From: Candidatus Krumholzibacteriota bacterium
GTDB taxonomy: Bacteria; Krumholzibacteriota; Krumholzibacteriia; Krumholzibacteriales; Krumholzibacteriaceae
DNA: 64,000 bases
Reading direction: 5' to 3'
NCBI GenBank assembly: GCA_016932415.1
Contig: JAFGCX010000018.1
Span: 86,682-150,681, forward strand
Position numbers and translations under genes: made by a program. The stretch's first letter is position 1. The number at the start of each line of letters is the position of its first letter. Under the pieces are notes generated by a model, which was not told the origin of the DNA, searched no databases, and worked only from the letters and a program-made list of their open reading frames with translations. Below, piece after piece: positions 7,097 through 64,000 of the stretch.

Positions 7097-7105
7097 CAGG
7101 GGTTG

Positions 7106-27142: not shown

Positions 27143-27883
27143 ATGTTTAGTTTTTTTTCCAGGTCGCGGGATCTGACGAGAGCTTTGTCGATATTTCTTA
27201 CCATGACATTTCTTTTTTCAATCGCTCCGGTCTGCGCCCAGGAACCGGAGGACAGGATATTCGCGATCTGGGAAGAGATAGGACTTCTGAGGGCAAGGGG
27301 CGATTATGGGAAGGCTGAAGAGATCCTCGAACAGGTCCTGATAGATTATGTCGACGACGAGTTTGTGCTGAGAAGAGCGTGGAACCTTCTTGTGCACACA
27401 AGGTTCAAGATGAATGATGATGAAAGTGCCATGGAGACGGCGAGGATGGCGCTTGAGAGATTCCCGGATCTGACAGTGAATACGGCGATCCTGCCGGCCT
27501 CGATGAATGATACTTATGACGAGCTTAGAAGTTCGATGTACGGTTCTCTCGAAGTGACCGGTCCGGAAGGAGCGGTGTTGTTCCTCGACGCCGATTCGCT
27601 CGGAACAGCTCCGGTTAAGTTCGAATATATCCGCACGGGAATGTACCTGCTGACAGCTTCAAAAAAAGGGTACCACTCCAGGGCGGATACGGTCAGGATC
27701 GATCCAAGCGAGACCCTGACCTTCGGCATGACGCTCGACAGGAGAAAAGATACCAGGTGGTGGCTCTACAGGATAGTACCTGCCGCCGCGGCCGTCGCGC
27801 TGATAATATATCTGACGAGGCCTGATAATTCGAGCACGCCGGTCGAGCAGCCGCTTCCCTGGCCCCCTGATCCACCACAATAA
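27143..27883 (+). CDS. PEGA-domain envelope protein with C-terminal membrane helix
   Basis: A 246-residue protein of unknown function. A signal peptide (ends APVCAQ) is followed by a helical TPR-like region (RARGDYGKAEEILEQVLIDY). A single PEGA-type beta domain covers about 133-190 (GSLEVTGPEGAVLFLDADSLGTAPVKFEYI), then comes a membrane helix (about 208-225) and a short Pro-rich tail (PLPWPPDPPQ). PEGA domains usually sit on the cell surface or in the periplasm and mediate contacts. The next gene, 25 bases downstream, carries several PEGA repeats, so the two products may interact. GGGGGAG lies before the ATG. Confidence 0.8.
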   Translation: MFSFFSRSRDLTRALSIFLTMTFLFSIAPVCAQEPEDRIFAIWEEIGLLRARGDYGKAEEILEQVLIDYVDDEFVLRRAWNLLVHTRFKMNDDESAMETARMALERFPDLTVNTAILPASMNDTYDELRSSMYGSLEVTGPEGAVLFLDADSLGTAPVKFEYIRTGMYLLTASKKGYHSRADTVRIDPSETLTFGMTLDRRKDTRWWLYRIVPAAAAVALIIYLTRPDNSSTPVEQPLPWPPDPPQ

Positions 27884-27908
27884 TACAGGCGGGAGATGAA
27901 TAAAGAAG

Positions 27909-30095
27909 ATGGTTTCTGACAGAGGATTCAGAACGATACCAAACCCGTATATTGTCGGCAATCCCATCGAAGACAAAAAAATGTTCTTCGGTCGGCTCGA
28001 TGATTTCGAGTTCATAAGGAAAAAAGTCACCGCCAACCGGCAGGGCGGTATAATCGTACTCTGCGGATCGCGAAGGAGCGGCAAGACCTCTATCCTCTTC
28101 CAGATAAACCAGGGCAGGCTGGGTGATGATTTTCTTCCCGTATTGATAGATATGCAATCGGTCACGGTCCAGAGCGACAGGGAATTCCTCGAAATAATCG
28201 CGAGGGAGATAGACGCCGTCCTGGAAGGTTCCGGTTCGCTGGTAGACGAGGGATTTCAGTCGCGGCTTGAAGCGAATCCTCTTCTAGCCTTCAATGAGTT
28301 CACCGGGAGACTCAACGAGAAGATAGCCGGCAGGAACCTGATCCTGATGTTCGACGAGTATGAGCTTTTCGAGACGCATATCGAGCGCCAGCGATTCAGC
28401 AAGGATGTCCTCAATCTGATGGCGTACTGGATGGAAAACAACGAAGGAGTCTATTTTCTCTTTACCGGCTCGGACAAGCTTGAAAAAAGGAATCCTGAAT
28501 ACTGGGAATCGTTTCTCGGTAAAGCCCTTCATCGAAGGATCAGTTTTCTCAGCCATGCCGACGCTCTGAGGCTGATCAGCGAACCGGTGAAAGATATCGT
28601 CAAATATGACAAGGGAGTCACCGGGAAGATCTTCGAACTTACGGCGGGCCAGCCATTTTACACCCAGGTCATATGCCAGTCCCTGGTCGATCACCTCAAC
28701 GAATCAGGCAAGAATACGGTCTCTGAAGAGGATATTGACGATGTGGTCGAGGAGATCATTGAGAATCCGCTACCCCAGATGATTTTTTCATGGAGTTCGA
28801 TGACGCAGATCGAAAGGATCGTTCTTTCGATCATAGCCGAGCTGAGCAAGGAAGATTCAGAGGTTGTCACTTCCGACGACATGCTCTCTTTTATCGAATC
28901 CGAGAAGATCGGATATAATGTCGATCCAAACAAGCTCAGGGAAGCGGCGGAAAGACTTTTTCACCAGGATCATCTTTTCAAGGACCAGGATACCGAAGGT
29001 TATACTTTCAGGATGGACCTCTGGCGGCGCTGGACGATCCGGATGCATTCGATATGGCAGGTCCTTGATGAGATAACCGCCGATGGAGCTCAGCTCGAAG
29101 AAGGGATATTACCTGTCCGTAAAAGACTCAAAGCGGTAATAGTGACGGCTTTTTTTGCCGCGGCGGTCATTATCGCCGCTTCCGTGCTCTACAGTATCAA
29201 CGTACGCGAACGCGGCAGGGTCGCCGGGCTCGCGGTCAGGCAGGATTCCACGCGGCTGTCCGTCGATACAGAACCTGCCGGAGCCCAGATATTCGTCGAC
29301 AGGACTTTCGTCGGGCTCTCTCCCGTGCGCGAGACGGTTCCGGCGAAGAGGTCGGCGCTGAGAGTGACACTTGCAGGGTACAGGGAGTTTGAGGATTCAG
29401 TCGATCTTGAAAAGGATCTTCCTTATGAAAGAATGATCGATCTGGAAGAAGAGACAGGATCGATCATGATCAGTTCTTTTCCGGAAGGAGCAGAGGTCGT
29501 TCTTGACGGGAACAGGGTGGAGACTCGTACGCCGATAAGATTTGATTCTCTTTCGGTCAACGTCCTTCATAAATGCCGGGTGATGCTGCCCGGATATTAT
29601 GTCCACGAATTCAACGGGATCGAACTGACCGCCGATTCCGTCACTACACTTTTTCACAGGTTCAGCAGGATGCTTCATCCGCTTACGGTCATCTCCGAAC
29701 CGGCGGGGGCGAAAATCCTGATAGACGGAGTCGAGCGCGGACATGCCCCCGTCAGTATTAGCCGTATTGAAGAAGGAGAGCATCTGCTTTCCGCTGTCCT
29801 TGAAGGTTACTATGACAAGAGCAGTCAGATAACAGTGCCGGTGGATGAAAACCAGGTAAGGATAGATCTGGTCCTTCTTCCGCCGGGAGACCTCGTGCTG
29901 GAGATACTTCCTTACGCCGAGCTCTGGATCGACGGGCAGCTGGTCGATAGCGACGCGGTCAATTACCGGGTCTCATTAAGGCCTGGCAGGCACGAGATCG
30001 AATTGCGGCATCCCGTCTTCGGAAATCTGAAGGAAACGGTTATCCTGGTCTCTGGCGAGACGCTGACGAGAACATTCAACCTGGAGCGGAAGTGA
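27909..30095 (+). CDS. Membrane P-loop (STAND/AAA-type) ATPase with extracytoplasmic PEGA repeats
   Basis: A 728-residue protein. The N-terminal cytoplasmic ATPase has an NPY...FFGRLDDFEFI lead-in, Walker A GSRRSGKTS (about 53-61) and Walker B NLILMFDEYE (about 143-151), then a winged-helix-like helical region to about 390. One membrane helix (about 407-430, AVIVTAFFAAAVIIAASVLYS) follows. The outer part has four PEGA-like repeats (LSVDTEPAGAQIFVD, IMISSFPEGAEVVLD, LTVISEPAGAKILID, LVLEILPYAELWID). The lead-in and Walker B resemble those in the kinase-ATPase gene that follows, whose start overlaps this stop. The protein probably couples an external PEGA contact to ATP-dependent switching inside. 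No exact family is recognised. Confidence 0.82.
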   Translation: MVSDRGFRTIPNPYIVGNPIEDKKMFFGRLDDFEFIRKKVTANRQGGIIVLCGSRRSGKTSILFQINQGRLGDDFLPVLIDMQSVTVQSDREFLEIIAREIDAVLEGSGSLVDEGFQSRLEANPLLAFNEFTGRLNEKIAGRNLILMFDEYELFETHIERQRFSKDVLNLMAYWMENNEGVYFLFTGSDKLEKRNPEYWESFLGKALHRRISFLSHADALRLISEPVKDIVKYDKGVTGKIFELTAGQPFYTQVICQSLVDHLNESGKNTVSEEDIDDVVEEIIENPLPQMIFSWSSMTQIERIVLSIIAELSKEDSEVVTSDDMLSFIESEKIGYNVDPNKLREAAERLFHQDHLFKDQDTEGYTFRMDLWRRWTIRMHSIWQVLDEITADGAQLEEGILPVRKRLKAVIVTAFFAAAVIIAASVLYSINVRERGRVAGLAVRQDSTRLSVDTEPAGAQIFVDRTFVGLSPVRETVPAKRSALRVTLAGYREFEDSVDLEKDLPYERMIDLEEETGSIMISSFPEGAEVVLDGNRVETRTPIRFDSLSVNVLHKCRVMLPGYYVHEFNGIELTADSVTTLFHRFSRMLHPLTVISEPAGAKILIDGVERGHAPVSISRIEEGEHLLSAVLEGYYDKSSQITVPVDENQVRIDLVLLPPGDLVLEILPYAELWIDGQLVDSDAVNYRVSLRPGRHEIELRHPVFGNLKETVILVSGETLTRTFNLERK

Positions 30096-32068
30096 TGATA
30101 GCGGGAGAAGTGATCTCCGGAAAATACCGTATCGTGAAAAAGATAGGTCAGGGCGGTTTCGCATCGGTCTATCTCGCATTCGATCTGAAGCTGGAAAGGG
30201 AAGTCGCGATAAAAGTCCTCTCCAGCGTCGAGGACAATAATCTTTTCCGCGAAAGGTTTTACCGCGAGTCGCAGGCCCTGGCCAAACTCAACCACCCGAA
30301 TATTATCACCGTTTTCGATTGCGGTGAACACAATGGGCATGAATTTCTCGTGATGGAGCTCGTCAACGGTCCTTCCCTTGAGACTCTCATATCCAAGATG
30401 ACGCTTAAAATGCCGCAGGTATGCTCGATCGCCCTGCAGATCTGCGAAGCGATGCGATACGCCCATGACCAGGGATTCCTGCACAGGGACCTGACCCTGA
30501 AGAATATCATGCTCGATGAAGAGGAAACGGAAAATGCCAGGGTAAAGATACTCGATTTCGGACTGGTCAAACTCCTTTACTCCGATATAAAGACGACCGG
30601 AAACGCGATGATGGGGACTCCCGCTTTCATGGCGCCTGAACAGGTCGTCGGCAAGCCGGTAGACAACAGGATAGACATATGGGCTTTCGGGGTGGGGCTC
30701 TACAGGATAATCACGGGAGAGTTCCCGTTCAAGGGAGAGCATCCCGCCGCGCTTATGTATTCGATTGTCAATGACGCTGAACTGGAGATCCCTGCCACAG
30801 TTCCCCGGGGCTTGAAAAAATTGATCAGCGACTGCCTCGCCAAAGACCCTGAAAAACGGCCTCTTGATTTCGGGGAGATCGCTTCCGCGCTCGAGGAGAT
30901 CGATGCCGAACTGAGAGACGGAGAGAGCAGACCCGGCACGGAGCTGGTCACGAATGTCGGATCGCTCGCCGAGCGAAACAGCAAGAGGAACCCGTATCTC
31001 AACCGTGTCATGATAAAAAGCCCGAATGATTTTTTCGGCCGCGAAAAAGAGATACGGAAAATATATTCACGCCTCGACGCGCCGCAACCCCAGTCGATAT
31101 CGGTGGTCGGTGACCGCAGGATCGGCAAATCATCCCTGCTCAACCATATCCATAACAGGAAGAACCGCAAAAAATTCATGCAGAATTACGATTCTTCAAT
31201 ATTTGTCTATCTCGACTTTCAGAATACCGTCGACAATGACGTCTCCAAATTCATCGACCTGTTGTTCAACGTGTTCAGTTTTGAGACAGGCGATCAGACG
31301 AGATATACGGCGAGGCCAAAGACTCTCGATCAACTCAAGGACGTCATAGAGGAACTGCATGAAGAGGGCAAGCGGATCATAATAATGATGGATGAATTCG
31401 AATTGATCACGCGTAACGAGAATTTCGAGCAGGATTTTTTTTCATTTCTGCGCTCTCTCGCCAACACGTACAGGGTGGCGTATGTGACCTCATCGCGTGA
31501 AGAACTGCAGTTGATGTGTCACGACAAGGATATTTCGGATTCCCCTTTCTTCAATATCTTTTCGAATCTGCCCCTCAGGCCGTTCAGCCGTGAAGATGCC
31601 GACAAGCTTATCTCGATCCCGTCAAGACGCGAAGGCGTCCCACTCGAGGAATATTCGGAAAGGCTGCTCGACATGGCCGGACTCTTTCCATTTTATCTCC
31701 AGATAGCATGTTCCTCTCTCTTTGAATTCATAGTGGATAATCCTTCCGCCGATCCGGACTGGAAGGAAGTCCTCAGGGTATTCACTGAGGAGGCTCAACC
31801 GCATTACAACTTCATATGGGAGAGGTTCGATGATCCGGAAAGGGGAAATCTCGCCAGGATCGTCCAGGGGAAAATGATCGATAAAAAATTCAATTACGTG
31901 ACTGAGAATCTTCTCAGGCGGGGTTATCTTGTCGAGGATGGCGGCGGGCTGAGATTATGCTCGAGTACCTTTGCCGATTTTGCGGCTGGCCGTTCAGGAG
32001 GGCAGTCGGGACAAGGTTTAAGATTCTCATCTATTCTCAGCCGGTTAAGGAAAAAGAATCCCGGTTGA
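30095..32068 (+). CDS. Serine/threonine protein kinase fused to a P-loop (STAND-type) ATPase
   Basis: A 657-residue cytoplasmic protein. The kinase domain (about 10-270) has a Gly loop IGQGGFASVYLAF, the Lys in EVAIKV, catalytic HRDLTLKNIM (usual Lys after Asp-Leu is Thr), DFGLVK and APEQ, so activity is likely. A P-loop ATPase follows with NPY...FFGREKEIRKIY, Walker A GDRRIGKSS (near 340) and Walker B IIIMMDEFE (near 430). The ATPase half is related to that of the preceding membrane protein. The start is ATG 30095 or GTG 30092; both overlap the preceding stop. The kinase-STAND layout resembles PknK-type regulators. No transmembrane helix is present. Confidence 0.88.
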   Translation: MIAGEVISGKYRIVKKIGQGGFASVYLAFDLKLEREVAIKVLSSVEDNNLFRERFYRESQALAKLNHPNIITVFDCGEHNGHEFLVMELVNGPSLETLISKMTLKMPQVCSIALQICEAMRYAHDQGFLHRDLTLKNIMLDEEETENARVKILDFGLVKLLYSDIKTTGNAMMGTPAFMAPEQVVGKPVDNRIDIWAFGVGLYRIITGEFPFKGEHPAALMYSIVNDAELEIPATVPRGLKKLISDCLAKDPEKRPLDFGEIASALEEIDAELRDGESRPGTELVTNVGSLAERNSKRNPYLNRVMIKSPNDFFGREKEIRKIYSRLDAPQPQSISVVGDRRIGKSSLLNHIHNRKNRKKFMQNYDSSIFVYLDFQNTVDNDVSKFIDLLFNVFSFETGDQTRYTARPKTLDQLKDVIEELHEEGKRIIIMMDEFELITRNENFEQDFFSFLRSLANTYRVAYVTSSREELQLMCHDKDISDSPFFNIFSNLPLRPFSREDADKLISIPSRREGVPLEEYSERLLDMAGLFPFYLQIACSSLFEFIVDNPSADPDWKEVLRVFTEEAQPHYNFIWERFDDPERGNLARIVQGKMIDKKFNYVTENLLRRGYLVEDGGGLRLCSSTFADFAAGRSGGQSGQGLRFSSILSRLRKKNPG

Positions 32069-32238
32069 CCATCTGCCGCGCCGGCTTGAAAGTCCCGGTT
32101 TCCATCCTGGGAGAGAAGTATGAGGGCCTTGGCCTGTCTTTACGCGATATCAGGAACCTTTCCGGCAAATTCCGCTGTTTTCACTTGCCATCTCAGGACG
32201 GGTAATGACAGGATGACGAGGAAAAGGGTGCTTCTGAA

Positions 32239-33738
32239 ATGAGAATCTGTTCGATCTCGCGATCGATGATATTTCTTCCGCTGATCGTCTCTCTCCTGGC
32301 GGGGTGCGGAAAGGGAAGGATGACCGGCAGAGAACCGGCCGATCGCGAAGACTGTCTTGTCATCGAGGCCGTGAAAAAGCGCGCCGATTCTATAAGAGTG
32401 GCTCTCTTTGATAATATCGATCCGGCAGACATCCCTTTTCCCCGCAACGGATCGGAACGCTTCCTCTTCGGTAATCTCTACGAATCCCTGATAAAGATCG
32501 ATTGCCGGGGTCAGGTATCTCCATCCCTCGCCAGCAGGTGGGAAAGTACGGACAGGGGGAGATGCTGGCGATTCGAACTCGATAGAGAAGCTGTTTTCTG
32601 GAATGGAACTGCTGTCACCGCGAATGATGTGATCCGGTGCTGGGACCGCGATGAACTTAAATCGATGTTCGCCCTGGCAGGAATAGATTCCTTTTCAGCC
32701 GAAGGGGCGACGAAGATCAATATATATTTGATGGAACGATCGACGGAGGTGCCGCGCGCTCTCGCTTCAGAGGCATTCTCCGTATACAGGCGTTCTCTTT
32801 TTTCGCGCTGGCCCCTCGGAACCGGAGACTTCAGAGTCGTCGAGAGAGCGCCAAAAACCCGCGAGTCTGATCAGAATCTTGCTATCCAGCCTGCTTTTTC
32901 CCGCCATGGACCTTTTATAGATATTTTAACGATACCTGTCGAAGAGGCGAGAGACATCCTTGAAAGTTCGATAGACCTTCTTGTCACAGGCGATCAGGAA
33001 ACAATCGATTTCGCCGTGAAAAGAGGAAGTTTTATCACGGAAAGACTCCCGTGGAGTTCGACCTATATGCTCCTGTCGACATCGCGGGTGAGGGATATCA
33101 GGCTCGGCAGGAGAACAGAACCGATCTCGCCCGGGCTGCGGGAAAACCTCGCGCATTTCGCCATAAGGTGCGAAGCACGGGCAAGCCGTCCGGGGGGATG
33201 GTGGGATCGTATGGGAGATCGCCGTTCTCTGTCATCAGGAGTCAAATGGCCCCCGGTCTTTCTTGCCGGAGCCGATATTGATTCAGAGAGGCGAAGGATC
33301 GTATATGATATAAACGATGAGACTTCCAGGGATATAGCGGAGCGGCTCGTCGCCCTGGCAGGCGGCGATCCGGATATTTCAAATGATTCCCGCGATCTTT
33401 TATCTGTGATTCCCGATATCGAAGGCAGGTACGCATCTGGTGTCCCGCTCAGAGCGGAAGGGCTGGCGCGTGAAGATCTCGACCGCAGTGTTCTCTCCGG
33501 CGATGATTTCGCTTACATTATAAAAGTGGCGCGCAACAGCTTCGATCCATCTTTTCAGGCGGGGCTTTTCATGGAAAAGATCAACTGGGTTTCCGGCCTT
33601 GAAGGCAATTTTTCAAAAGCCCTGCTCACCCTTGCAGACACGAGGGAGACAGTCATAGCGAGAAAGGATGCCGCATCGATCTCCGTCGACTGGTCCGGCA
33701 GGATAATAATAATGGTGAACAGGGGTGAACGAAGATGA
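32239..33738 (+). CDS. Family 5 solute-binding-protein-like lipoprotein
   Basis: A 499-residue lipoprotein with signal peptide and lipobox LLAGC. The domain resembles OppA/DppA-type binding proteins: LFGNLYESLIKIDCRGQVSPSLASRW, DRGRCWRFELDREAVFWNG, TAVTANDVIRCW. No ABC permease or ATPase gene is nearby; instead a histidine kinase and a sigma-54 response regulator follow within 40 bases. It is therefore more likely the ligand-binding arm of a sensory system than part of an importer; that role is inference. The upstream gap of 170 bases holds nothing recognisable. Confidence 0.8.
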   Translation: MRICSISRSMIFLPLIVSLLAGCGKGRMTGREPADREDCLVIEAVKKRADSIRVALFDNIDPADIPFPRNGSERFLFGNLYESLIKIDCRGQVSPSLASRWESTDRGRCWRFELDREAVFWNGTAVTANDVIRCWDRDELKSMFALAGIDSFSAEGATKINIYLMERSTEVPRALASEAFSVYRRSLFSRWPLGTGDFRVVERAPKTRESDQNLAIQPAFSRHGPFIDILTIPVEEARDILESSIDLLVTGDQETIDFAVKRGSFITERLPWSSTYMLLSTSRVRDIRLGRRTEPISPGLRENLAHFAIRCEARASRPGGWWDRMGDRRSLSSGVKWPPVFLAGADIDSERRRIVYDINDETSRDIAERLVALAGGDPDISNDSRDLLSVIPDIEGRYASGVPLRAEGLAREDLDRSVLSGDDFAYIIKVARNSFDPSFQAGLFMEKINWVSGLEGNFSKALLTLADTRETVIARKDAASISVDWSGRIIIMVNRGERR

Positions 33739-33780
33739 CGGCCGGGATATTTCACGATAGTAATTAAAAGGTGAGTGAAG

Positions 33781-35517
33781 ATGAACTTCCGCCCCAGGTT
33801 GATAATAACATCCCTCCTGGCAGTCCTTCTTCCGATGATCGTCCTGGCTTTTTTCATCCGGGGCGAGATGACCAGGCGCATATCAGCGCAGTACCGGCGG
33901 CGCGTCGAGTCGATGACGGCGGTAATAGAGGAAGACCTCCGGAAGGAAAGCGACGATATAGGAAAAACGGTCGACGCACTTATGGAAAGTCTCGCCGACG
34001 ACAACAGCTTCAGGAATGCCGCGGCGAGCCAGGACGCGCAATCGAGGCGTTATCTGATAGATCTCGCGGGAAATGTTATCGATCTGCCCGGCCTGTCGAT
34101 GCTTCAGATACAGGACCGATCAGGCAGGATAATAAGTTCGGGTCACTTCAGAAATGAATTCGACAGGATAGACAGGGATCTGCCCCTCCTCCTTTCCTCT
34201 GTAAAGGAAGGTCCGGTACTTGCCGAGGCGCGAGCTCCCGACTCTCCTTTTCTCGTTCTCGCCAGGGTCGATTCGTTCGTGATATCCGGCAGATATTTCA
34301 CCGTCTCGGCCGGCAGGCGAGTCGACCAGGAATTTCTCGGAAGGCTTTCAAGAGAGGATATGCTCGATATCGTTCTTCTCTGGCCTGGCGGGGCGATCGG
34401 TTCGGGAGATAAGGAAGAGGAAAAAGAAGGCACCAGCAATGCCGGCCCTGGCCGGGAGGAAGAAGGGCTCGAGGGGGCGACGGGGAGTCTCGATCTGCCG
34501 TTTATAGGCATTGATCGCGCCGGAGTCGGGGAAGCGTCGTTCAAGGTGACTCACCGGGTAGATGAACTCGTAGCCCTGAGAAGAAGCATGGACAGGTGGT
34601 TCACAATCGCCCTTCTCAGCGCGGCAGTCTTCTCGATCATCCTCGTCAGCTGGCTCTCTTCGAGAATAAGCAGGCCCCTGACGGAACTGGCCGAAAAGAC
34701 GGCGCAGATAGACCTCGAAAAGCTCGATGTCGATTTTGATAGTCCCAGGCGAGATGAGATAGGAGCCCTGTCGAGGATGCTCATGGCTATGACAGAGAGG
34801 CTCCGTTCGAGCGCGGCGAGGATCAGGGATGCCGAGCACCGCGCCACGTTGGGCGAACTGGCCAGGCAGGTCAATCACGATATAAAAAACGGCCTCACCC
34901 CGATTAGGAATATCTTCCGGCACCTTTCGGAGATCGAGAAGAGCGATCCGGCAGGCATGCCGGGGATATTCAATGAGCGGCGCGCCGTCCTCGAATCGAG
35001 TATCGAGTATCTCGATGATCTGGCGTCGAACTACGCCAGGCTCTCTCCATCGGCCAGTATCGGGATATGCGACGTCAATTCTGCGGTCATAAAAGTCGCC
35101 AGAGAGCTGCGAGCTTCAAGGCGGGCGGAAGTCCAGGTCGACCTCGCTGATGGCGCTTTCATCATGGGAGATGCTGTCGCTGTGAGACGCGTCGTGGAAA
35201 ATCTCGCCGGGAACGCCGCGGACAGCCTTGAAGATAAGAGGGGAACGGTCTCGATAACAACCTCGATCATCAGCGGAAAGGGCGGCGATGAGAAGGTCCG
35301 CCTGAGTGTCAGCGACACGGGAAGCGGGATGACCGAGAAAGAGATGGCGGCTATTTTCAATGATTTTTATACTACAAAGGAGAGGGGAGTCGGGCTGGGG
35401 CTTTCGATAGTCAGACGACTTGTCATCGATCTTGGCGGGTCGATAAATGTTGAAAGCGCCAGGGGAAAGGGGAGCCGGTTTGTCGTCGATATTCCACGGG
35501 CCGCACGGTCCTGCTGA
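33781..35517 (+). CDS. NtrY-like membrane sensor histidine kinase
   Basis: A 578-residue inner-membrane kinase. Helix 1 (about 6-26, LIITSLLAVLLPMIVLAFFI) and helix 2 (about 270-290, FTIALLSAAVFSIILVSWL) flank a periplasmic sensor of some 240 residues. HAMP, HisKA with phospho-acceptor His in QVNHDIKNGLTP (near 365), and an ATPase domain (NLAGNAADSLEDK, DTGSGMT, GVGLGLSIVRRL) follow. The ATG at 33781 is preferred to the GTG at 33775 because AAGGTGAG lies six bases before it. The cognate regulator starts 12 bases downstream. Kinases with the NHDIKN motif usually partner sigma-54 regulators, which fits here. Confidence 0.93.
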   Translation: MNFRPRLIITSLLAVLLPMIVLAFFIRGEMTRRISAQYRRRVESMTAVIEEDLRKESDDIGKTVDALMESLADDNSFRNAAASQDAQSRRYLIDLAGNVIDLPGLSMLQIQDRSGRIISSGHFRNEFDRIDRDLPLLLSSVKEGPVLAEARAPDSPFLVLARVDSFVISGRYFTVSAGRRVDQEFLGRLSREDMLDIVLLWPGGAIGSGDKEEEKEGTSNAGPGREEEGLEGATGSLDLPFIGIDRAGVGEASFKVTHRVDELVALRRSMDRWFTIALLSAAVFSIILVSWLSSRISRPLTELAEKTAQIDLEKLDVDFDSPRRDEIGALSRMLMAMTERLRSSAARIRDAEHRATLGELARQVNHDIKNGLTPIRNIFRHLSEIEKSDPAGMPGIFNERRAVLESSIEYLDDLASNYARLSPSASIGICDVNSAVIKVARELRASRRAEVQVDLADGAFIMGDAVAVRRVVENLAGNAADSLEDKRGTVSITTSIISGKGGDEKVRLSVSDTGSGMTEKEMAAIFNDFYTTKERGVGLGLSIVRRLVIDLGGSINVESARGKGSRFVVDIPRAARSC

Positions 35518-35529
35518 AAGTGAGGCGCC

Positions 35530-36879
35530 ATGTCACTTATCCTGGTAGTGGATGATCTTCTTAACCTCGCTCAGCAGTACGCCTATGACCTGAAAAGGGT
35601 CGGCGGATTCGACGTGATTATCGCCACCGGCGGGGCGCAGGCTCTTGAGATGATCTCCGGCGAGGCGGTCGACTGCGTGATACTCGACCTCGAGATGCCT
35701 GGAGTGGACGGGTTCGAAGTGCTCCGGACGATGAAAGAACGACGGATAGGTATTCCTGTGATAGTCTACACCGGGACCGGCGATTTTGACAGGTGCGTAA
35801 AAGCGGTCAATCTCGGGGCGTACGGGTTTATCGACAAGTCGGAGTCGATGGAAAGAGTCGCGCTCGAGGTGAAGAATGCTCTCGAGAGGAACCGGCTCGA
35901 GGTCGAAGTAAAGTCGCTCAGGCAGGAAACCGGAAGAGGCACTCCGCTGACAGGCTCGAGCAGGGCGATGGAGGACCTCAGGGAGCAGATAGGGCGGATA
36001 GCCCCGTTCCCCGGCACCGTACTCGTCGTCGGGGAAAGCGGGACGGGAAAGGAACTCGTCGCGAGAGAACTGCACAGGCTCGGACCGGGAGAAAAGACTC
36101 CCTTTGTCGCCGTCAACAGCGCCGCTTTTCCGGAAAATCTCATTGAAAGCGAACTTTTCGGACATGAGCGTGGGGCTTTCACCGGGGCAAGCAGGTTGCA
36201 CAGGGGAGCGTTCGAGCGGGCGACGGGAGGCACCCTATTCCTCGACGAGATAGGAGAACTTCCTCTTCCCGCCCAGGCGAAGCTTCTTCGGGTCCTGGAG
36301 GAAAAGAAGATAACGAGGATCGGAGGCGAAAAGAGTATCGGCGTCGACGCGAGAGTCGTTACCGCGACGAACCGGGATCTTGAATCGCTCCAGGCGGAGG
36401 GGAGATTCAGGCAGGATCTTTACTATCGGCTCAATGTCCATATCCTGCGGATACCGCCGCTGCGGGAGCGCAAGTCGGATATTGCCGAACTGACAGACCA
36501 TTTCCTGAGGAGTATCTGCTCTGGCTACGGTATCAGGGAGAAGAAGCTTGACGATGGGGTCCTCGATCTTCTTTCCCGGTACGACTGGAAACGGAACAAT
36601 GTACGCGAATTGAGGAATATTATCGAGAGGATGATAATAGCCTCCGATGCCGGCCTGATACAGATCGGCCACGTTCCGGCGGAAGTGGCGGGGAGAGGCC
36701 CGGCCGGGAAGGGGCCCCGGACTTTTCAGGAGATGAAATCGGAATCAGAGCGCCGGATAATCATTTCGGCCCTTGAGCGAAACGGCTGGCAGATCACGAC
36801 TACCGCCGCCGAACTCGGCCTGGCAGATCACTCGAGCCTTCTCAAGATCATGAGACGGCATAATATCAAAAGAAAATAA
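35530..36879 (+). CDS. NtrC-type sigma-54 response regulator
   Basis: A 449-residue response regulator. The receiver domain has phospho-acceptor Asp53 in CVILDLEMP and the acidic pair VVDD at the start. The AAA+ domain shows [14 protein letters not shown], the sigma-54 contact loop [19 protein letters not shown] and PPLRERKSDIAEL. A Fis-type helix-turn-helix ends the protein (ITTTAAELGLADHSSLLKIM). GTGAGG is five bases before the ATG. It is phosphorylated presumably by the kinase upstream. Two palindromes that could be its binding sites begin four bases after its stop codon, ahead of a -24/-12 promoter, so the next gene is a likely target. Confidence 0.95.
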   Translation: MSLILVVDDLLNLAQQYAYDLKRVGGFDVIIATGGAQALEMISGEAVDCVILDLEMPGVDGFEVLRTMKERRIGIPVIVYTGTGDFDRCVKAVNLGAYGFIDKSESMERVALEVKNALERNRLEVEVKSLRQETGRGTPLTGSSRAMEDLREQIGRIAPFPGTVLVVGESGTGKELVARELHRLGPGEKTPFVAVNSAAFPENLIESELFGHERGAFTGASRLHRGAFERATGGTLFLDEIGELPLPAQAKLLRVLEEKKITRIGGEKSIGVDARVVTATNRDLESLQAEGRFRQDLYYRLNVHILRIPPLRERKSDIAELTDHFLRSICSGYGIREKKLDDGVLDLLSRYDWKRNNVRELRNIIERMIIASDAGLIQIGHVPAEVAGRGPAGKGPRTFQEMKSESERRIIISALERNGWQITTTAAELGLADHSSLLKIMRRHNIKRK

Positions 36880-36882
36880 TCA

Positions 36883-36900
36883 TGTGTCCATGGGGACACA
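36883..36900. promoter_or_regulatory. Candidate enhancer site 1 (TGTCC-N4-GGACA palindrome)
   Basis: A perfect inverted repeat TGTGTCC-ATGG-GGACACA. Its centre is 34 bases (about three helical turns) from that of site 2, and about 150 bases upstream of the -24/-12 promoter, the usual place for binding by a sigma-54 activator. Confidence 0.65.
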
Positions 36901-36917
36901 TTTCTGTGATCAAATAA

Positions 36918-36933
36918 GTGTCCAAATGGACAC
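36918..36933. promoter_or_regulatory. Candidate enhancer site 2 (TGTCC-N4-GGACA palindrome)
   Basis: A perfect inverted repeat GTGTCC-AAAT-GGACAC with the same half-sites as site 1. The pair is probably bound by the adjacent response regulator; that assignment is inference. Confidence 0.65.
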
Positions 36934-37029
36934 AAAAGGAGACGTCTTTTTCCCCGCCGCGATTTGCTTCGCTTTTCATCCATTTGTAAAATAACAAGAT
37001 ACGACTGGCATCAATTGCTTTCCCTTCGC

Positions 37030-37044
37030 TGGCCTTCCGCTTGC
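37030..37044 (+). promoter_or_regulatory. Sigma-54 (-24/-12) promoter of the TPR lipoprotein gene
   Basis: TGGCCTTCCGCTTGC has GG and GC separated by exactly ten bases, as RpoN requires, and matches TGG-N...TTGC. Transcription would start near 37056, about 60 bases before the ATG at 37115. Confidence 0.65.
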
Positions 37045-37114
37045 CCTGCTAAAGGTACAGGAACGGTCAAGGAGTCAACGCCCGGGAAGGGCAAAACCTG
37101 AAAGGAGGGTCACA

Positions 37115-38218
37115 ATGTTGAATACGTCTGGAAGAACGAGGAGAGCAGTAGCCGGCGTAGCATGCATCGTGATGCTTGTCATATCCATGGCGCTGTCAGG
37201 CTGTGGAAACGAGGAAGGAAAGAGCAGCAGGGGGATCAGGGTCGAAAGGATCACCAGGGATGATCCGGCGAAGAGGGCAACGGCTGAGCAGCCGGAAGTC
37301 GCCGCCATCGCGCCCGCGATTGAAGAAGCAGAGCCGGAGGCGGAGAGAGTCAGCGCCGCTGACCGGGAAGTCTCCTATGAAGAAGCAGAGGAAGCGTATT
37401 TTGAAAAACGGTATGCCGAAGCGACTGAACTGTTCGGTTATTATACCGATCGCAAGAGCGAGAACCCGTGGGGATTTTTCATGCTGGGTCTATCGGCATG
37501 GAAGGCAAAAGATTACGAGACGGCTGAACGGGGTTTTCAGACTGCCATCCGGCTCGATCCGAACCATGTAAAAAGCTGGCTTGGCATGAGCAGGGTCCTT
37601 CTTGATACGGGACGGCCTCTCGAGTCGCTCGAGACCACCGGCAGGGCGCTCGAGATCGACAGCGGATCGAACGACGCTTTCCGGCTTCAGGGAAGAGCCT
37701 GCCACCAGCTCGGCAGAAGCGAAGAGGCGATCGACGCCTACCGCCGGGCGATCGTCATCGATATCAATGACGCGTGGTCGATGAACAATCTTGCCCTGAT
37801 ACTTATCGAGGAAGGCAGGTTCGATGAGGCCCTCGCGCCGCTCGCCCGCGCTACCGAGCTCAGGGACGATATCGCAGTCTTTCAGAACAATCTCGGAATG
37901 GCGCTCGAGCACACCGGTCATTTCAAAGCTGCCGCCGAAGCGTATGCCTCCGCGGTCAAGATCGATGAATCTTATGAAAAGGCTTATGAGAACCAGCTTC
38001 GCGTGGAAGGGGTCGTGGAGGATCCAGGCAGGGAAAGTATCGATCTAGTCTCTCTCGCCGCCTCTTTCGCCGAAAGTATCCCGGGCTGGGAGGTGGCAGG
38101 AGTGGAAGAAAGCGCTCCGGCAGCCGCGCTCACAGTACCGGAATCCGCCGCAACAGCGACGGGAAGCATAGCCTCGATAAACCCGGCCGATTCCATCGCG
38201 GGAGGGAATGACAGATAA
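37115..38218 (+). CDS. TPR-repeat lipoprotein
   Basis: A 367-residue exported lipoprotein: signal peptide with lipobox ALSGC (Cys near 29), an acidic Ala/Glu-rich linker, and about five tetratricopeptide repeats between 85 and 300 (EEAEEAYFEKRYAEATELFGYY, WGFFMLGLSAWKAKDYETAERG, AFRLQGRACHQLGRSEEAIDAY and others). The last 65 residues are low in complexity (Ala, Ser, Pro). TPR arrays bind other proteins, so this may be an envelope scaffold. AGGAGG precedes the ATG. The upstream region carries a -24/-12 promoter and two palindromes, so expression is probably controlled by the neighbouring two-component pair. Confidence 0.85.
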   Translation: MLNTSGRTRRAVAGVACIVMLVISMALSGCGNEEGKSSRGIRVERITRDDPAKRATAEQPEVAAIAPAIEEAEPEAERVSAADREVSYEEAEEAYFEKRYAEATELFGYYTDRKSENPWGFFMLGLSAWKAKDYETAERGFQTAIRLDPNHVKSWLGMSRVLLDTGRPLESLETTGRALEIDSGSNDAFRLQGRACHQLGRSEEAIDAYRRAIVIDINDAWSMNNLALILIEEGRFDEALAPLARATELRDDIAVFQNNLGMALEHTGHFKAAAEAYASAVKIDESYEKAYENQLRVEGVVEDPGRESIDLVSLAASFAESIPGWEVAGVEESAPAAALTVPESAATATGSIASINPADSIAGGNDR

Positions 38219-38292: not shown

Positions 38293-38463
38293 GCTGTTGA
38301 AAAGAATAAAGTCTGATAGGCCTGATAATTCAATCAGCCGGGAGGACCCTGCCTTCAACTCTCCTTGATAATGACGCGGTTATATGAGAGAATACTCCCG
38401 TGGCTCCAGGGATGGGGCGATGAGATCGATGAAGATCGAAAATACCTGCCGAAAGGAAAGAGT

Positions 38464-39830: not shown

Positions 39831-42119
39831 TTACCTCAGAAGAATCAGCTTTTTCGCTTCCACCTGTCCCGCGGCGAGGAACTTGCAGAAATATATCCCG
39901 CTTGAAAGCTGTTTCCCCTTGTCGTTTTTTCCATCCCAGTCGACCCTGTGTATTCCTGCCTCGACAGTTTTGGCCGAAAGGAGAGTCCTGACCTTTCGGC
40001 CGGAGACGTCATAGATCACGAGGGTGACCTTCGTCTCCCTTTCGAGCGAATACTCGATCGTCGTAGCGGGGTTGAAAGGATTCGGGTAAGACCCTCTCAG
40101 GTTCGTTTTGAACGGAGGAGAGGGAGAGTCGTCGTCAACGGTATAGGCGGGGATACCGGCGAGCCTCAGATCGCGGCAGGTGATCCCCTGGTCGTCTGTC
40201 GTCACGATCTCCATAAGGTAGAGTCCGCCTGCGAAAGGAGTCGTATCCCAGGTGAGAAAATCGATTATTCCGTTTCCATGGGCGATCCCGGTGTCGACCT
40301 GTATCCATCCCGATCTCAACGAAGCGTTGTCGATCGGAGGTGACGATCCGCCATCTTCGGGAGGAGAGACCTTAATATAGCCGCTTACCCAGCCATCCCC
40401 TCCGGCTCCGTCGAGGTCGTAACCTTCGAGGGTCGTCTGTCCCTCGTCATTCTCTCCCGTCTCGTAATCGTTGTCTTCGGTGCTTCCGCCTCCCCATGGA
40501 TCCATGAAATCGAGGGAGGTATCGGTATTGCCCGTCGCCGGCGGCGGATTGACAGCTTCGTAATAGGTAGTCGTCACCGAACCGAGAGTGACGACATGCC
40601 CGATCGTATCTCCAGCCGCTGTCGTATCCTGGACGAGCATGAGAATGTCCTCTCCGTCCGATTCGAATTCGCGGATCATCTCTCCCAGGCCGGTCGCGTC
40701 GGAGACTTCGCCGTGTTCGACAGACCATCCCGACTGTCCGTGGCCTTCGAGATACGATTCGATCCCCGAGACCATCCCGTCCGGAGTCGTGCCGTTCTCA
40801 TCGGTGCCCATCGCGTCCTGGAGTTCGCGGGCCATTTCCTCGCCGCTCTGCTCAGGTTTTGCTTCGTCGCCGTTTGGATTATCCAGCTCGCCATGGCCAT
40901 TGTCGGCGAAATACTTAAGACACGAAGCTGCCGCGGTCGGCGCGCAGGAGGTCGAATCATAATCGGTTCCGAGTCCGAGCTGGTCGATCTCCGTCAGGTC
41001 CCTGTGATATTCGAAGGAGATCGGGTAGATCAACAGTTCGGCGGTGCCGGGAGAGAAGAATTCGTCATCTATTTTGTAGGTGATATCGAAGAATGAGTCG
41101 ATCGCGAAATTACCGACCGAGTCCTCGTCGAAATTCTCGAATTCAGGGATCGGCGGAGTAGGATCGACAAAGACGATGACGGTGTCCCTGAGATATCCGT
41201 AGGGAGGAACGAACAGGCGCGATTCGAACTCGACTACCTGTCCCTCGAACGGCTCCGATCCCGGATCGAAATATCCGCAGAAACCGTCGCCTGGGCCGAG
41301 AGGATATATCGTCTTGTATCCGGGCCCCCATCCCTCCGGATCGATCCAGAAATCGGTGAACGGCCCTGTATCGCCTTCATGACGGTACGCGAAGACAGCT
41401 TCAAGGATCTCGCAGTTTTTGCAGCCTGACACTGACGTTGAGAGCTTTATCATTCCTTCCATCGGGCCGTCATGCTCGGCGACAGCGACGTCGGACATAT
41501 AGGCGGTCGGAACGTGCAGGTGCGCGCGGGGCGCATAGTACGGGCGTATCTCTTCTGTTATGTAATGAAATTCTCCAACCTGGATCCCGTCTTTTCTGAA
41601 GACCGGCACCGGCGGCATCATCGGATCCGATTCATAATTCTCGAAGTAGGGAGGCCACTGATCGATGATCGATGAGATGTGGATAGGCGCGTATGTCACC
41701 AGCGTATCGCCAGGCATCCCGTCGAGCTCGATCTGAAAGAAGACATCGAAGAAACTTTCGGCGGGAAAATCGATCCCGGGAGTGAGCGGCTTGACCTTGC
41801 CCGGCGATGGGAGCCCGTCATTCAGCCCCACCTTTATGCCGGGACCTTTGAGGTCGAGGGCGATGATCTCTGTCTCGATAATAAGAAATTCCGGATCGAG
41901 CGGATCGGGAAACGGATCGGAGAATAGAATATCGCAATCTCCGAAGACGTGCACCGTATCGGGCGGCCCAAAATCCCAGATATGAAGGACGATCCTCGCT
42001 TCCTGGCCGACCTTGACTTCAGTCGGGCCCGCGGAAGCGCTGACCGCTATCCCGGCGCAGAGAGCGGCGGCAATGATCAGCGCCGCCATGAGCCGGAGAG
42101 GGCGTTGGCAGTATTTCAC
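39831..42119 (-). CDS. Secreted protein with C39-like cysteine-peptidase domain and sorting tail
   Basis: A 762-residue exported protein. The GTG start at 42119 has AGGAGG six bases upstream and gives a clean signal peptide (MAALIIAAALCAGIAVSASA). About 360 residues of beta-rich sequence lead to a C39-like papain-fold segment: Cys in YDSTSCAPTAAASCLKYF (near 390), His in IGHVVTLGSV (near 508) and Asp in FMDPWGGG (near 538). An acidic insert (ENDEGQTTLEGYD) follows. A GLYLMEIVTTD segment comes next, then the sorting domain (YPNPFNPATTIEY...YDVSGRKVRTLL...SGIYF) ending in ILLR. The triad looks intact, so a surface protease or isopeptidase is possible; the target is unknown. Confidence 0.83.
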   Translation of the reverse strand: MKYCQRPLRLMAALIIAAALCAGIAVSASAGPTEVKVGQEARIVLHIWDFGPPDTVHVFGDCDILFSDPFPDPLDPEFLIIETEIIALDLKGPGIKVGLNDGLPSPGKVKPLTPGIDFPAESFFDVFFQIELDGMPGDTLVTYAPIHISSIIDQWPPYFENYESDPMMPPVPVFRKDGIQVGEFHYITEEIRPYYAPRAHLHVPTAYMSDVAVAEHDGPMEGMIKLSTSVSGCKNCEILEAVFAYRHEGDTGPFTDFWIDPEGWGPGYKTIYPLGPGDGFCGYFDPGSEPFEGQVVEFESRLFVPPYGYLRDTVIVFVDPTPPIPEFENFDEDSVGNFAIDSFFDITYKIDDEFFSPGTAELLIYPISFEYHRDLTEIDQLGLGTDYDSTSCAPTAAASCLKYFADNGHGELDNPNGDEAKPEQSGEEMARELQDAMGTDENGTTPDGMVSGIESYLEGHGQSGWSVEHGEVSDATGLGEMIREFESDGEDILMLVQDTTAAGDTIGHVVTLGSVTTTYYEAVNPPPATGNTDTSLDFMDPWGGGSTEDNDYETGENDEGQTTLEGYDLDGAGGDGWVSGYIKVSPPEDGGSSPPIDNASLRSGWIQVDTGIAHGNGIIDFLTWDTTPFAGGLYLMEIVTTDDQGITCRDLRLAGIPAYTVDDDSPSPPFKTNLRGSYPNPFNPATTIEYSLERETKVTLVIYDVSGRKVRTLLSAKTVEAGIHRVDWDGKNDKGKQLSSGIYFCKFLAAGQVEAKKLILLR

Positions 42120-42249
42120 AGGGGACCTCCTTTGGCGATGGCCGAATGTCGCAGGTGGCAAGACCAGGAAATCGCTGTCAGCATATTTTCTTTTGTGTGA
42201 AGTTTCTATTCCCGGACCCGCTTCGAACCGGTAAATTTTAACGGAATAG

Positions 42250-42278
42250 ATGTTATCATATATCTGCTTCTTTTTCAA
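42250..42278 (-). promoter_or_regulatory. Promoter for the C39-like protein gene
   Basis: On the minus strand TTGAAA (42273-42278), a 17-base spacer and TAACAT (42250-42255). It lies about 130 bases before the GTG at 42119, within the 320-base divergent gap; the rest of the gap shows only AT-rich sequence. Confidence 0.5.
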
Positions 42279-42401
42279 GAAAATTGGGTTTGGGCTTTAC
42301 AACCGCCTGTCCGGATATTATTTTTAAGCCGTAAGGGAGAGAAAAATATTCACCTCGACAAAATACCCCACCATAAATTCGATGAATTCTTCTGTTCGAT
42401 G

Positions 42402-42410
42402 TGCTATAAT
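42402..42410 (+). promoter_or_regulatory. Extended -10 promoter for the divergent surface-protein gene
   Basis: TG-C-TATAAT is a perfect extended -10 element. No clear -35 is present. It is about 35 bases before the ATG. Confidence 0.55.
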
Positions 42411-42444
42411 ACCGGCACAGCCAACTGACAAAAGGAGGATCATG

Positions 42445-44694
42445 ATGCGCGTACATACTCGTATTCTCGCCGGATTATTCCTTCTCGCGGCGATTCTTGC
42501 CTTTCACACTCCGATCGATGGGAGGGAATCGCCTGTTCTGAAGCCTGATAAAGGCGGCGGTGGCGCGATAGACAGGGTATTCGTCCTCGACGGAACCGGT
42601 ATCCATAACGCGGGAAACCTTCAGGTACACACTGGAAACTGGGGGATCTTCGGTTCATATCCGGGTTCTTCATTTCCGACAAGCGAATTCCCATCGGCCC
42701 AGTGGCCGGCAAACAGCGGGGTCGAATATCTCTATATAGGAGGGTTGTGGGTCGGCGCCAGGGTAAACGGCATGCCGGCCGTTTCCACATCAGCTTACGA
42801 GATGGAATTCAGGCCGACGGCAGATCCGATAGACAGGATCTACAGCAGCTTTGAAAACGCGCCGGGCGGTAGCAGGCTTCCATCACCCGGGGCTGATGAT
42901 GATATGGATGGAATGATCGACGAGGACTGGCTGGACGGCCATGATAACGACCTTGACGGGATGATCGACGAGGACTACGCCGCCATATCGAGACAGATGT
43001 TCAGCAGCTGGTGCACCGATGACCAGCCGGAAGCAACGGCAAATTACCCAGAACATACTCCACTGCATGTCATGCTTCGGCAGGAAAGCTATCAGTGGGA
43101 GGATGAGGAATTTTACGATTTCGTAGGATTCAAATATACGATAACCAATATCGGGAATGTTCCCCTTGAGGATCTTTATCTCGGATTACTTATAGACGGC
43201 GATGCCGGTCCCCGGAGCTGGAGCAATTTCTGGGCTGATGACGCCAGCGGCAGATGGACGGGTACGCTTTGCTCCGAAATAGGTCCGGCCTTTGTCGACC
43301 TGGCGTATATATATGACGTCGATGGCGACGGGGGGCTGACCACGGGTTATCTTGGCGCGATGATCCTGGGACATACCACCGACCCTCTCGGGATCAAGGC
43401 CCCGGCGAAAGCCGGAATGACCTCGTTTCATATCTTCAGCGGAGATCAGCCGTTTGAAAACGGTGGAGATCCGACCAACGATTTTGAGCGTTACGAGCTG
43501 ATGTCGAAAAACAGTTATGACCCTGACGTCTCAATCCCATCGGACTACCGGATGCTTCTCAGTACGGGTGGATTCGGGATTCTGCTTCCAGGGGAATCAC
43601 TGGTACTTTACGTGGCTCTCGTGGCGGGAGAAGGTCTTGACGGCATGCTGGATAACGCGGCAAAGGCTCAGGCCCTCTTCAACGGACAATGGATCGATCT
43701 TGATCGCGATCCGGTAACCGGGTCTGACAGACGGGAGACTCCCGTGCGTGGCCCGGCGACAGGGGTTGTCATAGATCCCTGCCGGGCTGGACTTAGCGAA
43801 CCGGTGAACGTGCCGTACGGCCAGATCCTCTGGATAAACGCTGATTGCGAACAGGAGGAAGGATTCAAGTCGTTCTGCGCATATAGCGAAGCTGACAGCC
43901 TCATCTTCCGCACAGGCGTGGCCGGCAGGGAGACTCAGATCCACTGGCTCTTATCGATGCCGCAGCCGACGCTGAACCTTCTCGACATCCGTCCCTGTTC
44001 ATGTCCCAATCCGTTTAACGTGAAGCTCTTCGGGGAATCTAAGGGCAGGGGCAAGAGAAAGGGAGGGATGCTTCCCGTGGCGATCCTCGGAAGCGAAGAG
44101 TTCGACGTACACCTGATCGATCCAGCCTCGCTGAAACTTGAAGGGGTCAGCCCCGTGTACAGGAAGAAGTGCAGTTTCGAGGATGTCTCACGGCCGGTCA
44201 TTGGATGGATGCCATGCGAGTGCACGACGGAAGGGGCCGATGGATATCTTGATATGATCCTTCATTTCAGGGATCTTGAGATCGCCGATGCCATTGCCGT
44301 CGATGGTATCCCGAATGCCGGCGAAGAGAAGGTGCTTACGCTGACAGGCATGCTTTTCGACGGGACTCCTTTCGAGGCGTCTGATTGCGTCAAGTTCGTC
44401 GGACGACGCCTGAAACCCGGCGGGTTGATCGACGAAATCATCCTCAGGCCGGCCCTGCCGAACCCGTTCAACCCGGTGACCAGGATCTCGTTCTACCTTC
44501 CCGAAAAACAGAATATCCGCCTTGAGATCTTCGACGTCTCCGGACGCCTGGTGATGACACTGGCCGATGGGCCATATCCGCGGGGAGAATCGGCGATCGA
44601 ATGGAAAGCCTCGGGATTGAGCAGCGGGATATATTTTTACAGGCTGAAGGCCGGTGATTATGTCGAGACGAAAAAAGTAGTGCTTATGAGATAA
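42445..44694 (+). CDS. Secreted protein with Asp-rich calcium-type loops and sorting tail
   Basis: A 749-residue exported protein. Tandem ATGs lie at 42442 and 42445; the second is six bases after AGGAGG. After the signal peptide (ILAGLFLLAAILAFHTPIDG) comes a domain with YLYIGGLWVGARVNG, often seen in large FCB secreted proteins. Near residue 150 are two DxDxDGxIDED loops (DDDMDGMIDEDW, DNDLDGMIDEDY) that look like calcium sites. The middle contains a Cys-rich segment (LDIRPCSCPNPFNV), and the last 85 residues are the sorting domain (LPNPFNPVTRISF...FDVSGRLVMTL...SSGIYFYRLK) ending in VLMR. Function is unknown. Confidence 0.82.
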   Translation: MRVHTRILAGLFLLAAILAFHTPIDGRESPVLKPDKGGGGAIDRVFVLDGTGIHNAGNLQVHTGNWGIFGSYPGSSFPTSEFPSAQWPANSGVEYLYIGGLWVGARVNGMPAVSTSAYEMEFRPTADPIDRIYSSFENAPGGSRLPSPGADDDMDGMIDEDWLDGHDNDLDGMIDEDYAAISRQMFSSWCTDDQPEATANYPEHTPLHVMLRQESYQWEDEEFYDFVGFKYTITNIGNVPLEDLYLGLLIDGDAGPRSWSNFWADDASGRWTGTLCSEIGPAFVDLAYIYDVDGDGGLTTGYLGAMILGHTTDPLGIKAPAKAGMTSFHIFSGDQPFENGGDPTNDFERYELMSKNSYDPDVSIPSDYRMLLSTGGFGILLPGESLVLYVALVAGEGLDGMLDNAAKAQALFNGQWIDLDRDPVTGSDRRETPVRGPATGVVIDPCRAGLSEPVNVPYGQILWINADCEQEEGFKSFCAYSEADSLIFRTGVAGRETQIHWLLSMPQPTLNLLDIRPCSCPNPFNVKLFGESKGRGKRKGGMLPVAILGSEEFDVHLIDPASLKLEGVSPVYRKKCSFEDVSRPVIGWMPCECTTEGADGYLDMILHFRDLEIADAIAVDGIPNAGEEKVLTLTGMLFDGTPFEASDCVKFVGRRLKPGGLIDEIILRPALPNPFNPVTRISFYLPEKQNIRLEIFDVSGRLVMTLADGPYPRGESAIEWKASGLSSGIYFYRLKAGDYVETKKVVLMR

Positions 44695-46922: not shown

Positions 46923-46968
46923 GACGTTCTCCTTTCCAGCTGGTTCGATCGTGGAGCCAGCCATCCAG

Positions 46969-63915: not shown

Positions 63916-64000
63916 GGGGGCGAATGGATTCGACGGGGATAGAGGAAGCAGGAGAAGCGTGCCGAGGTGCCATCACCCTCGTAAATCAGGTGGAAAAACA
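63916..64000 (+). ncRNA. ssrA: tmRNA (ssrA), 5' part, cut by window end
   Basis: Transfer-messenger RNA that rescues stalled ribosomes. The conserved 5' end GGGGGCGAATGGATTCGACG is present from 63916, matching the acceptor-arm and D-arm analogue of one-piece tmRNA. GTGCCGAGGTGCC and CCTCGTAAATC, the early helix and pseudoknot region before the tag reading frame, follow. The tag peptide and 3' half lie beyond the window. Confidence 0.95.

Follow-up and report, generated by a model that had tools for sequence, protein, structure and literature searches.

The seven genes at positions 27143-38218 of the window, by which we mean the whole 64,000-nucleotide stretch of Candidatus Krumholzibacteriota bacterium DNA analyzed here (G000:C18:86682-150681, from a 3.1-Mb draft genome), raise the question of whether they encode a single envelope-signalling system or separate systems that happen to be neighbors. 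A first-pass annotation had recognized seven co-directional genes, encoding a PEGA protein, a membrane ATPase with PEGA repeats, a Ser/Thr kinase-ATPase fusion, a binding-protein-like lipoprotein, a histidine kinase, a sigma-54 regulator, and a TPR lipoprotein, and the coordinates and Pfam assignments bear this out: all seven open reading frames lie on the same (+) strand and their catalytic motifs are intact. The same annotation had inferred one circuit from the order and overlaps of the genes. The close co-directional order is as described, whereas the overlaps come down to a single pair, genes 2 and 3, which share 4 bases. A 170-bp spacer separates genes 3 and 4, at the junction of the two halves, genes 4, 5, and 6 are tightly packed, and 235 bp lie between genes 6 and 7. 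Comparison with the sister species G001, the only other genome of the genus, indicates that this seven-gene block has real borders. At the matching site, G001 lacks all seven genes and its CoA-ligase and rubrerythrin flanks adjoin each other, about 200 bp apart (G001:C1:31405-31610, locus L190); in the window, the CoA-ligase side extends up to 26868 and the rubrerythrin side starts at 38451, delimiting a block of 11.6 kb. The joined flanks imply that the two species differ by a single gain or loss of the entire block, or else by its stepwise loss. No obvious target duplication or repeats were present at the G001 junction, no tRNA was found marking the block, no integrase or transposase domain occurs among the annotated genes of the window, and an Rfam search of the block returned a single below-threshold match and nothing more.

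The distribution of the genes among relatives provides an answer. Genes 2, 4, and 5 were used as queries against 98 genomes, with an E value below 1e-45 taken as the cut-off for gene 5 orthologues; matches near E 1e-30 were other kinases. Gene 5 orthologues, and with them genes 4 to 7 (32239-38218; hereafter module B), were present in 44 of the 80 class genomes, while a gene 2 profile search placed genes 1 to 3 (27143-32068; module A) in 8 of the 80. Full-length gene 2 orthologues are encoded in G015, G017, G007, G010, G033, and G036, the gene is split in G047, and in G006 gene 1 and the first part of gene 2 lie at a contig edge; a gene 2 scan of genome contigs gave no confirmed relative. When the fetched loci were mapped for all genes, 1-2-3 were grouped and 4-5-6-7 were grouped, and the two groups never shared a locus outside the window's own genome. 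The halves are apart in 6/6 relatives that have both: G007 has them 234 kb from each other on one contig, G036 has them at 0.24 and 3.12 Mb of a single contig, and G033, G010, G015, and G017 carry them on different contigs. Module B without module A is the usual state. The first-pass annotation had proposed a single seven-gene system and had named independent occurrence of the two halves in most relatives as the observation that would overturn it, and independent occurrence is what the relatives display. It is thus very probable that the region consists of two independent signalling modules that are adjacent by chance in this genome, B being a dedicated sigma-54 circuit and A a set of paired NTPases. 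Gene 2 and gene 5 trees place G015 differently, but with weak support, and are not used here to argue for separate histories. Since G001 lacks both A and B, at least one gain or loss involved the two together, and a local link between them is therefore conceivable; beyond this and their adjacency in the window's genome, we found no evidence that ties one half to the other.

Module A begins with gene 1 (27143-27883), an exported protein with TPR (Pfam TPR_14, 27 bits) and PEGA (27 bits) matches, in which hydropathy predicts an N-terminal signal or transmembrane segment at residues 13-33 and a C-terminal transmembrane segment at 206-225. It adjoins gene 2 in G015, G017, G007, G010, G033, G047, and G006. 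Gene 2 (27909-30095; Pfam AAA/ATPase and PEGA) is predicted to place a P-loop NTPase in the cytoplasm and four PEGA repeats outside, on either side of a single transmembrane segment at 405-433, and retains a Walker A motif (GSRRSGKT53) and a Walker B motif (FDE). Gene 3 (30092-32068) has no transmembrane segment and joins a Ser/Thr kinase (residues 12-257; Pkinase, 200 bits) to an nSTAND2 NTPase (332-587; PF20702, 151 bits against a cut-off of 24), with the VAIK, HRD, DFG, APE, GDRRIGKS, and MMDE motifs all intact and 58-71% identity to the copies in relatives. Pfam does not recognize gene 2 as nSTAND2, and the gene 2 NTPase matches that of gene 3 in a profile comparison with 97% probability, as a distant paralogue. 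In three relatives, giant secreted FG-GAP/VCBS repeat proteins with a FlgD-like C-terminal tail are encoded 3' of module A (L053:3-4073, L054:3553-8541, and L056:2406-7451), and in two, secreted papain-like proteins are encoded 5' of it (L052 and L055); these families were named by inspection. The class relative G030 has three more pairs of NTPase genes that are related to this one (L061 on G030:C515 and L060 on G030:C350); kinase-NTPase fusions occur in two of these pairs, and the set suggests a broader family of paired NTPase systems.

The closest described relatives of this arrangement are the mobile two-gene nSTAND2 operons, in which both genes encode an NTPase, one of them eroded and fused to a GT4 or HEPN effector (Kaur et al. 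2021, PMC8195603). The two NTPases are predicted to build hetero-multimeric rings, and the operons are predicted to be counter-invader systems (PMC8195603). Like them, module A has two adjacent STAND-type NTPase genes, one of which is joined to an effector-like domain. Unlike them, it keeps the Walker A and Walker B motifs in both NTPases, its effector is a Ser/Thr kinase rather than GT4 or HEPN, the partner protein is membrane-bound and carries PEGA repeats, and a third, PEGA/TPR gene comes first. Because both NTPases look active, a kinase has been added, and the partner spans the membrane, module A is better regarded as a variant of the nSTAND2 operons than as a plain member. In the mechanism we propose, the gene 2 NTPase would be tethered through the membrane to the PEGA repeats while the gene 3 NTPase would carry the Ser/Thr kinase, and contact outside the cell would probably shift how the paired NTPases assemble, and thereby kinase activity. 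Module A would, in this way, extend the predicted nSTAND2 systems with a membrane-tethered, kinase-bearing form.

It is possible, if rather doubtful, that module A functions as an nSTAND2-type system for phage defence or conflict instead of as an envelope sensor. This would fit the counter-invader role predicted for nSTAND2 operons (PMC8195603), the sporadic spread of the module (8/80 class genomes), and the matches of the gene 3 kinase domain to PADLOC kinases. Those matches, however, are limited to the generic kinase domain, the gene 2 partner bears extracytoplasmic PEGA repeats, and the genes next to module A in relatives encode secreted FG-GAP and papain-like proteins, not defence functions. 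A PADLOC defence label was considered for both gene 3 and gene 6; as the matches were only to a generic kinase and a generic sigma-54 domain, respectively, none was assigned. We tentatively take module A to be a membrane-tethered sensor, and the comparison across relatives serves to separate a conserved system, module B, from this chance neighbor.

The order 4-5-6-7 of module B is kept in many genomes, and the module occurs in records titled Gemmatimonadota, Eisenbacteria, Rhodothermia, and others. Gene 4 (32239-33738) encodes an OppA/NikA-type (cluster-C) binding lipoprotein with an LLAGC lipobox and a match to PF00496 (SBP_bac_5; 38 bits, cut-off 32.4). The Pfam and PDB sequence matches are limited to the first part of the protein, and an AF2 model (pLDDT 83, pTM 0.82) aligns to PDB structures with a Z score of 22.3 over 387 residues at 3.8 A, the fold running across residues 48-496; as modeled, the binding-protein fold is complete and two-lobed. 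Gene 5 (33775-35517) encodes a membrane histidine kinase, described from Pfam, an alignment of 17 sequences, and a model. Transmembrane segments at 5-33 and 272-298 enclose a periplasmic sensor domain and are followed by HAMP and the phosphoacceptor H368. The sensor domain contains a conserved segment, LQIQD..GRI.SSGHFR, and the order of its elements in the model appears Cache-like by inspection. The H-box, HDIKN, resembles that of NtrY, while Pfam gives HAMP and HATPase_c only and NtrY is absent among the 25 NCBIfam matches listed; a fold search matched mostly the catalytic core, with ZraS among the nearest solved kinase cores. Gene 6 (35530-36879) is an NtrC-family regulator with REC, Sigma54_activat, and Fis HTH domains by Pfam, D53, and GAFTGA at 215. 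Its recognition helix, LGLADHASLLKIMRR, is nearly invariant among 64 homologues, as a pairing of one regulator with one site would predict. Gene 7 (37115-38218; Pfam TPR) encodes a TPR lipoprotein with an LSGC lipobox, predicted to be membrane-anchored and periplasmic and to be the output of the module. Its orthologues carry either a lipobox or an N-terminal transmembrane anchor, and with such anchoring the TPR domain should face the periplasm. RpoN is encoded in the same genome.

The strongest signal in the region, absent from the first-pass annotation, is a palindrome with the consensus GTGTCC-N4-GGACAC upstream of gene 7. Two perfect copies, predicted to be upstream activating sites, precede the gene: GTGTCCATGGGGACAC at 36884-36899 and GTGTCCAAATGGACAC at 36918-36933, 34 bp from the first. 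We collected 54 distinct upstream regions from records titled Krumholzibacteriota, Gemmatimonadota, Eisenbacteria, Rhodothermia, Bacteroidota, and some Acidobacteria, plus further relatives; a few of these records are possibly binning errors. The palindrome was present with at most one mismatch in 47 of the 54, against 0.05 expected from shuffles, and with at most two mismatches in all 54, against 1.25 expected; only base composition was preserved in the shuffles, and related sequences do not count as independent observations, even if, going by record titles, the loci come from several phyla. The last two palindromes are 34 bp apart in 27 upstream regions and 33 bp apart in 5. Between the palindrome and gene 7, GG-N10-GC was found in 52/54, compared with 1 to 9 for other spacings in a free spacing test. 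Even where 3-4 kb separate gene 7 from gene 6, the palindromes remain with gene 7, as in family f5 (e.g., L067:4740-7319), in which a gene for an S49 (SppA-like) protease lies between genes 6 and 7, 5' of the palindromes. One G009 contig ends just past gene 7 with its pair of sites, pointing to an assembly gap as the reason why the kinase is missing there.

In the window itself, the predicted sigma-54 promoter is TGGCCTTCCGCTTGCC (37030-37045, + strand), a GG-N10-GC match whose -12 element lies 71 bp before the start codon. The first-pass annotation had placed the TPR gene behind a -24/-12 promoter, and such a promoter is indeed predicted there, but not at the site that was evidently meant. 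That site, TGGCATCAATTGCT at 37006-37019, has a GG-GC spacer of 8 bases rather than 10 and, being 2 bp short, is not a valid sigma-54 promoter. Searches with a general sigma-54 consensus were uninformative: 6 matches in the genome versus 7 in the control, with no enrichment, and a chance-level result for the window at up to two mismatches. With consensus searches at background, the promoter becomes visible only through comparison of orthologues. On that comparison, there is very strong evidence that a conserved, predicted two-site sigma-54 promoter joins gene 6 to gene 7.

Gene 7 also appears to be the sole output. The perfect palindrome occurs exactly twice in the genome, both times before gene 7, and allowing up to one mismatch in the flanked 14-base form turned up no third copy. 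Perfect copies are likewise confined to the gene 7 pair in G007, G008, and G033 (2/2 each), while 2 of 3 perfect copies in G036 and 1 of 4 in G042 are at gene 7. Genomes with the kinase hold a mean of 1.11 perfect palindromes versus 0.22 for those without it (p = 5e-5). The palindrome was not found near the start of the kinase operon. An apparent single-target circuit is what these counts, read from sequence, point to.

A plausible mechanism for module B begins outside the inner membrane, where the gene 4 lipoprotein and the periplasmic domain of gene 5 would together register a change, with gene 4 perhaps serving as a co-receptor of gene 5. Gene 5 is expected from its family to phosphorylate gene 6, which, on the comparative evidence, would bind the two palindromes 34 bp apart and activate the single sigma-54 promoter, presumably by DNA looping to sigma-54 RNA polymerase as in other members of the family. 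The gene 7 product probably helps to counter the envelope problem that is sensed, and it may also act back on the sensor. The full proposition, that module B is an undescribed envelope-sensing system of Krumholzibacteriota, Gemmatimonadota, Eisenbacteria, and Rhodothermia-type lineages in which a lipoprotein gates a kinase, the whole pathway serves to make one periplasmic TPR protein, and the same two-site sigma-54 promoter is kept over phylum-level distances, is one for which we judge the chances to be evenly balanced. No description of module B was found in the literature searched, which covered few subscription papers. The novelty that the first-pass annotation had suggested for the seven-gene set does not hold for that set; module B alone is, apparently, a conserved, sharply defined, and undescribed sigma-54 module. 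A circuit whose site, spacing, and single target can be read across several mostly uncultured phyla is rare and directly testable. Envelope signalling in such bacteria is almost unexplored, and module B supplies a predicted binding site, promoter, and output gene.

Two described systems offer the nearest parallels. The Prs system consists of the kinase PrsK, the sigma-54 regulator PrsR, and the TPR lipoprotein PrsT (PMC1569441), all three of which have counterparts in module B, and in both systems a regulator site is combined with a -24/-12 element that lies about 71 bp ahead of the start codon (PMC1569441). In module B, unlike Prs, the output is the TPR gene itself, a binding lipoprotein is present, and the binding site differs. 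ZraP-ZraSR, an envelope/zinc response of E. coli, resembles module B in combining a membrane kinase and an NtrC-type regulator with essentially one sigma-54 target and a periplasmic product. ZraR has one main sigma-54 target, adjoining its own genes (PMC8249747), and the predicted palindrome of module B, unique to gene 7 in the genome, fits this trait. The target in module B is a TPR lipoprotein and not ZraP, its genes run in one direction, and it has the additional binding lipoprotein; its best scores against the NCBIfam models were 89.9 bits for ZraS (cut-off 479) and 302.9 bits for ZraR (cut-off 760). By analogy, module B would work like both ZraPSR and PrsKR-PrsT, and by the cut-offs it is a member of neither.

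That module B is nonetheless a divergent PrsK/PrsR/PrsT system governing exosortase (PEP-CTERM) cargo strikes us as unlikely. The part list matches (PMC1569441), and an exosortase of the EpsH family is encoded in the genome far from the window (G000:C7:153232-153996; PF09721, 240 bits). The NCBIfam Prs models TIGR02916, TIGR02915, and TIGR02917 also give matches, yet at 74, 344, and 64 bits, all three proteins fall far below the curated cut-offs of 300, 502.6, and 312 bits. The palindrome GTGTCC-N4-GGACAC is moreover unlike the PrsR site, motif 1, with its 3' end TTTACA (PMC1569441). It stands before the TPR gene only, and the binding lipoprotein belongs to the conserved unit. We hold a similarly low opinion of a role for module B in controlling the uptake of peptides or metals, in which gene 4 would be part of a transporter. 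Gene 4 does share the complete cluster-C fold of OppA and NikA (Z about 22), at 12-18% identity, but it differs from them in being tied to a kinase and in having no transporter genes nearby, as no ABC permease or ATPase partner was found among the annotated window neighbors, and the regulated gene encodes a TPR protein preceded by the single target site in the genome. A dedicated envelope-sensing circuit remains the reading of module B that we prefer.

That all seven genes form one circuit, in which an outside contact would act via the ATPase and Ser/Thr phosphorylation on a sigma-54 output, is highly improbable, for while they share a strand and close spacing and G001 lacks the entire block at one site, the halves are apart in all six relatives with both, B mostly occurs without A, and the palindrome precedes gene 7 only, with none before gene 1. 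As a conserved system, the seven-gene circuit is refuted. What survives from the first-pass proposal, with strong support, is a predicted path from extracytoplasmic sensing to sigma-54 output inside half B, ending in gene 7.

Several other features of the window were also recorded. Proteins ending in FlgD-like/Por-type secretion tails are encoded at 4137-6356, 7103-8743, 39831-42278, 42382-44694, and 46969-51828, pointing to a type IX-like sorting route. A cohesin domain is encoded at 44820-46964, and a cellulose-synthase-like glycosyltransferase with a PilZ domain at 57165-59414. At 63916-64000, a tmRNA gene (Rfam RF00023) starts and is cut by the window end.
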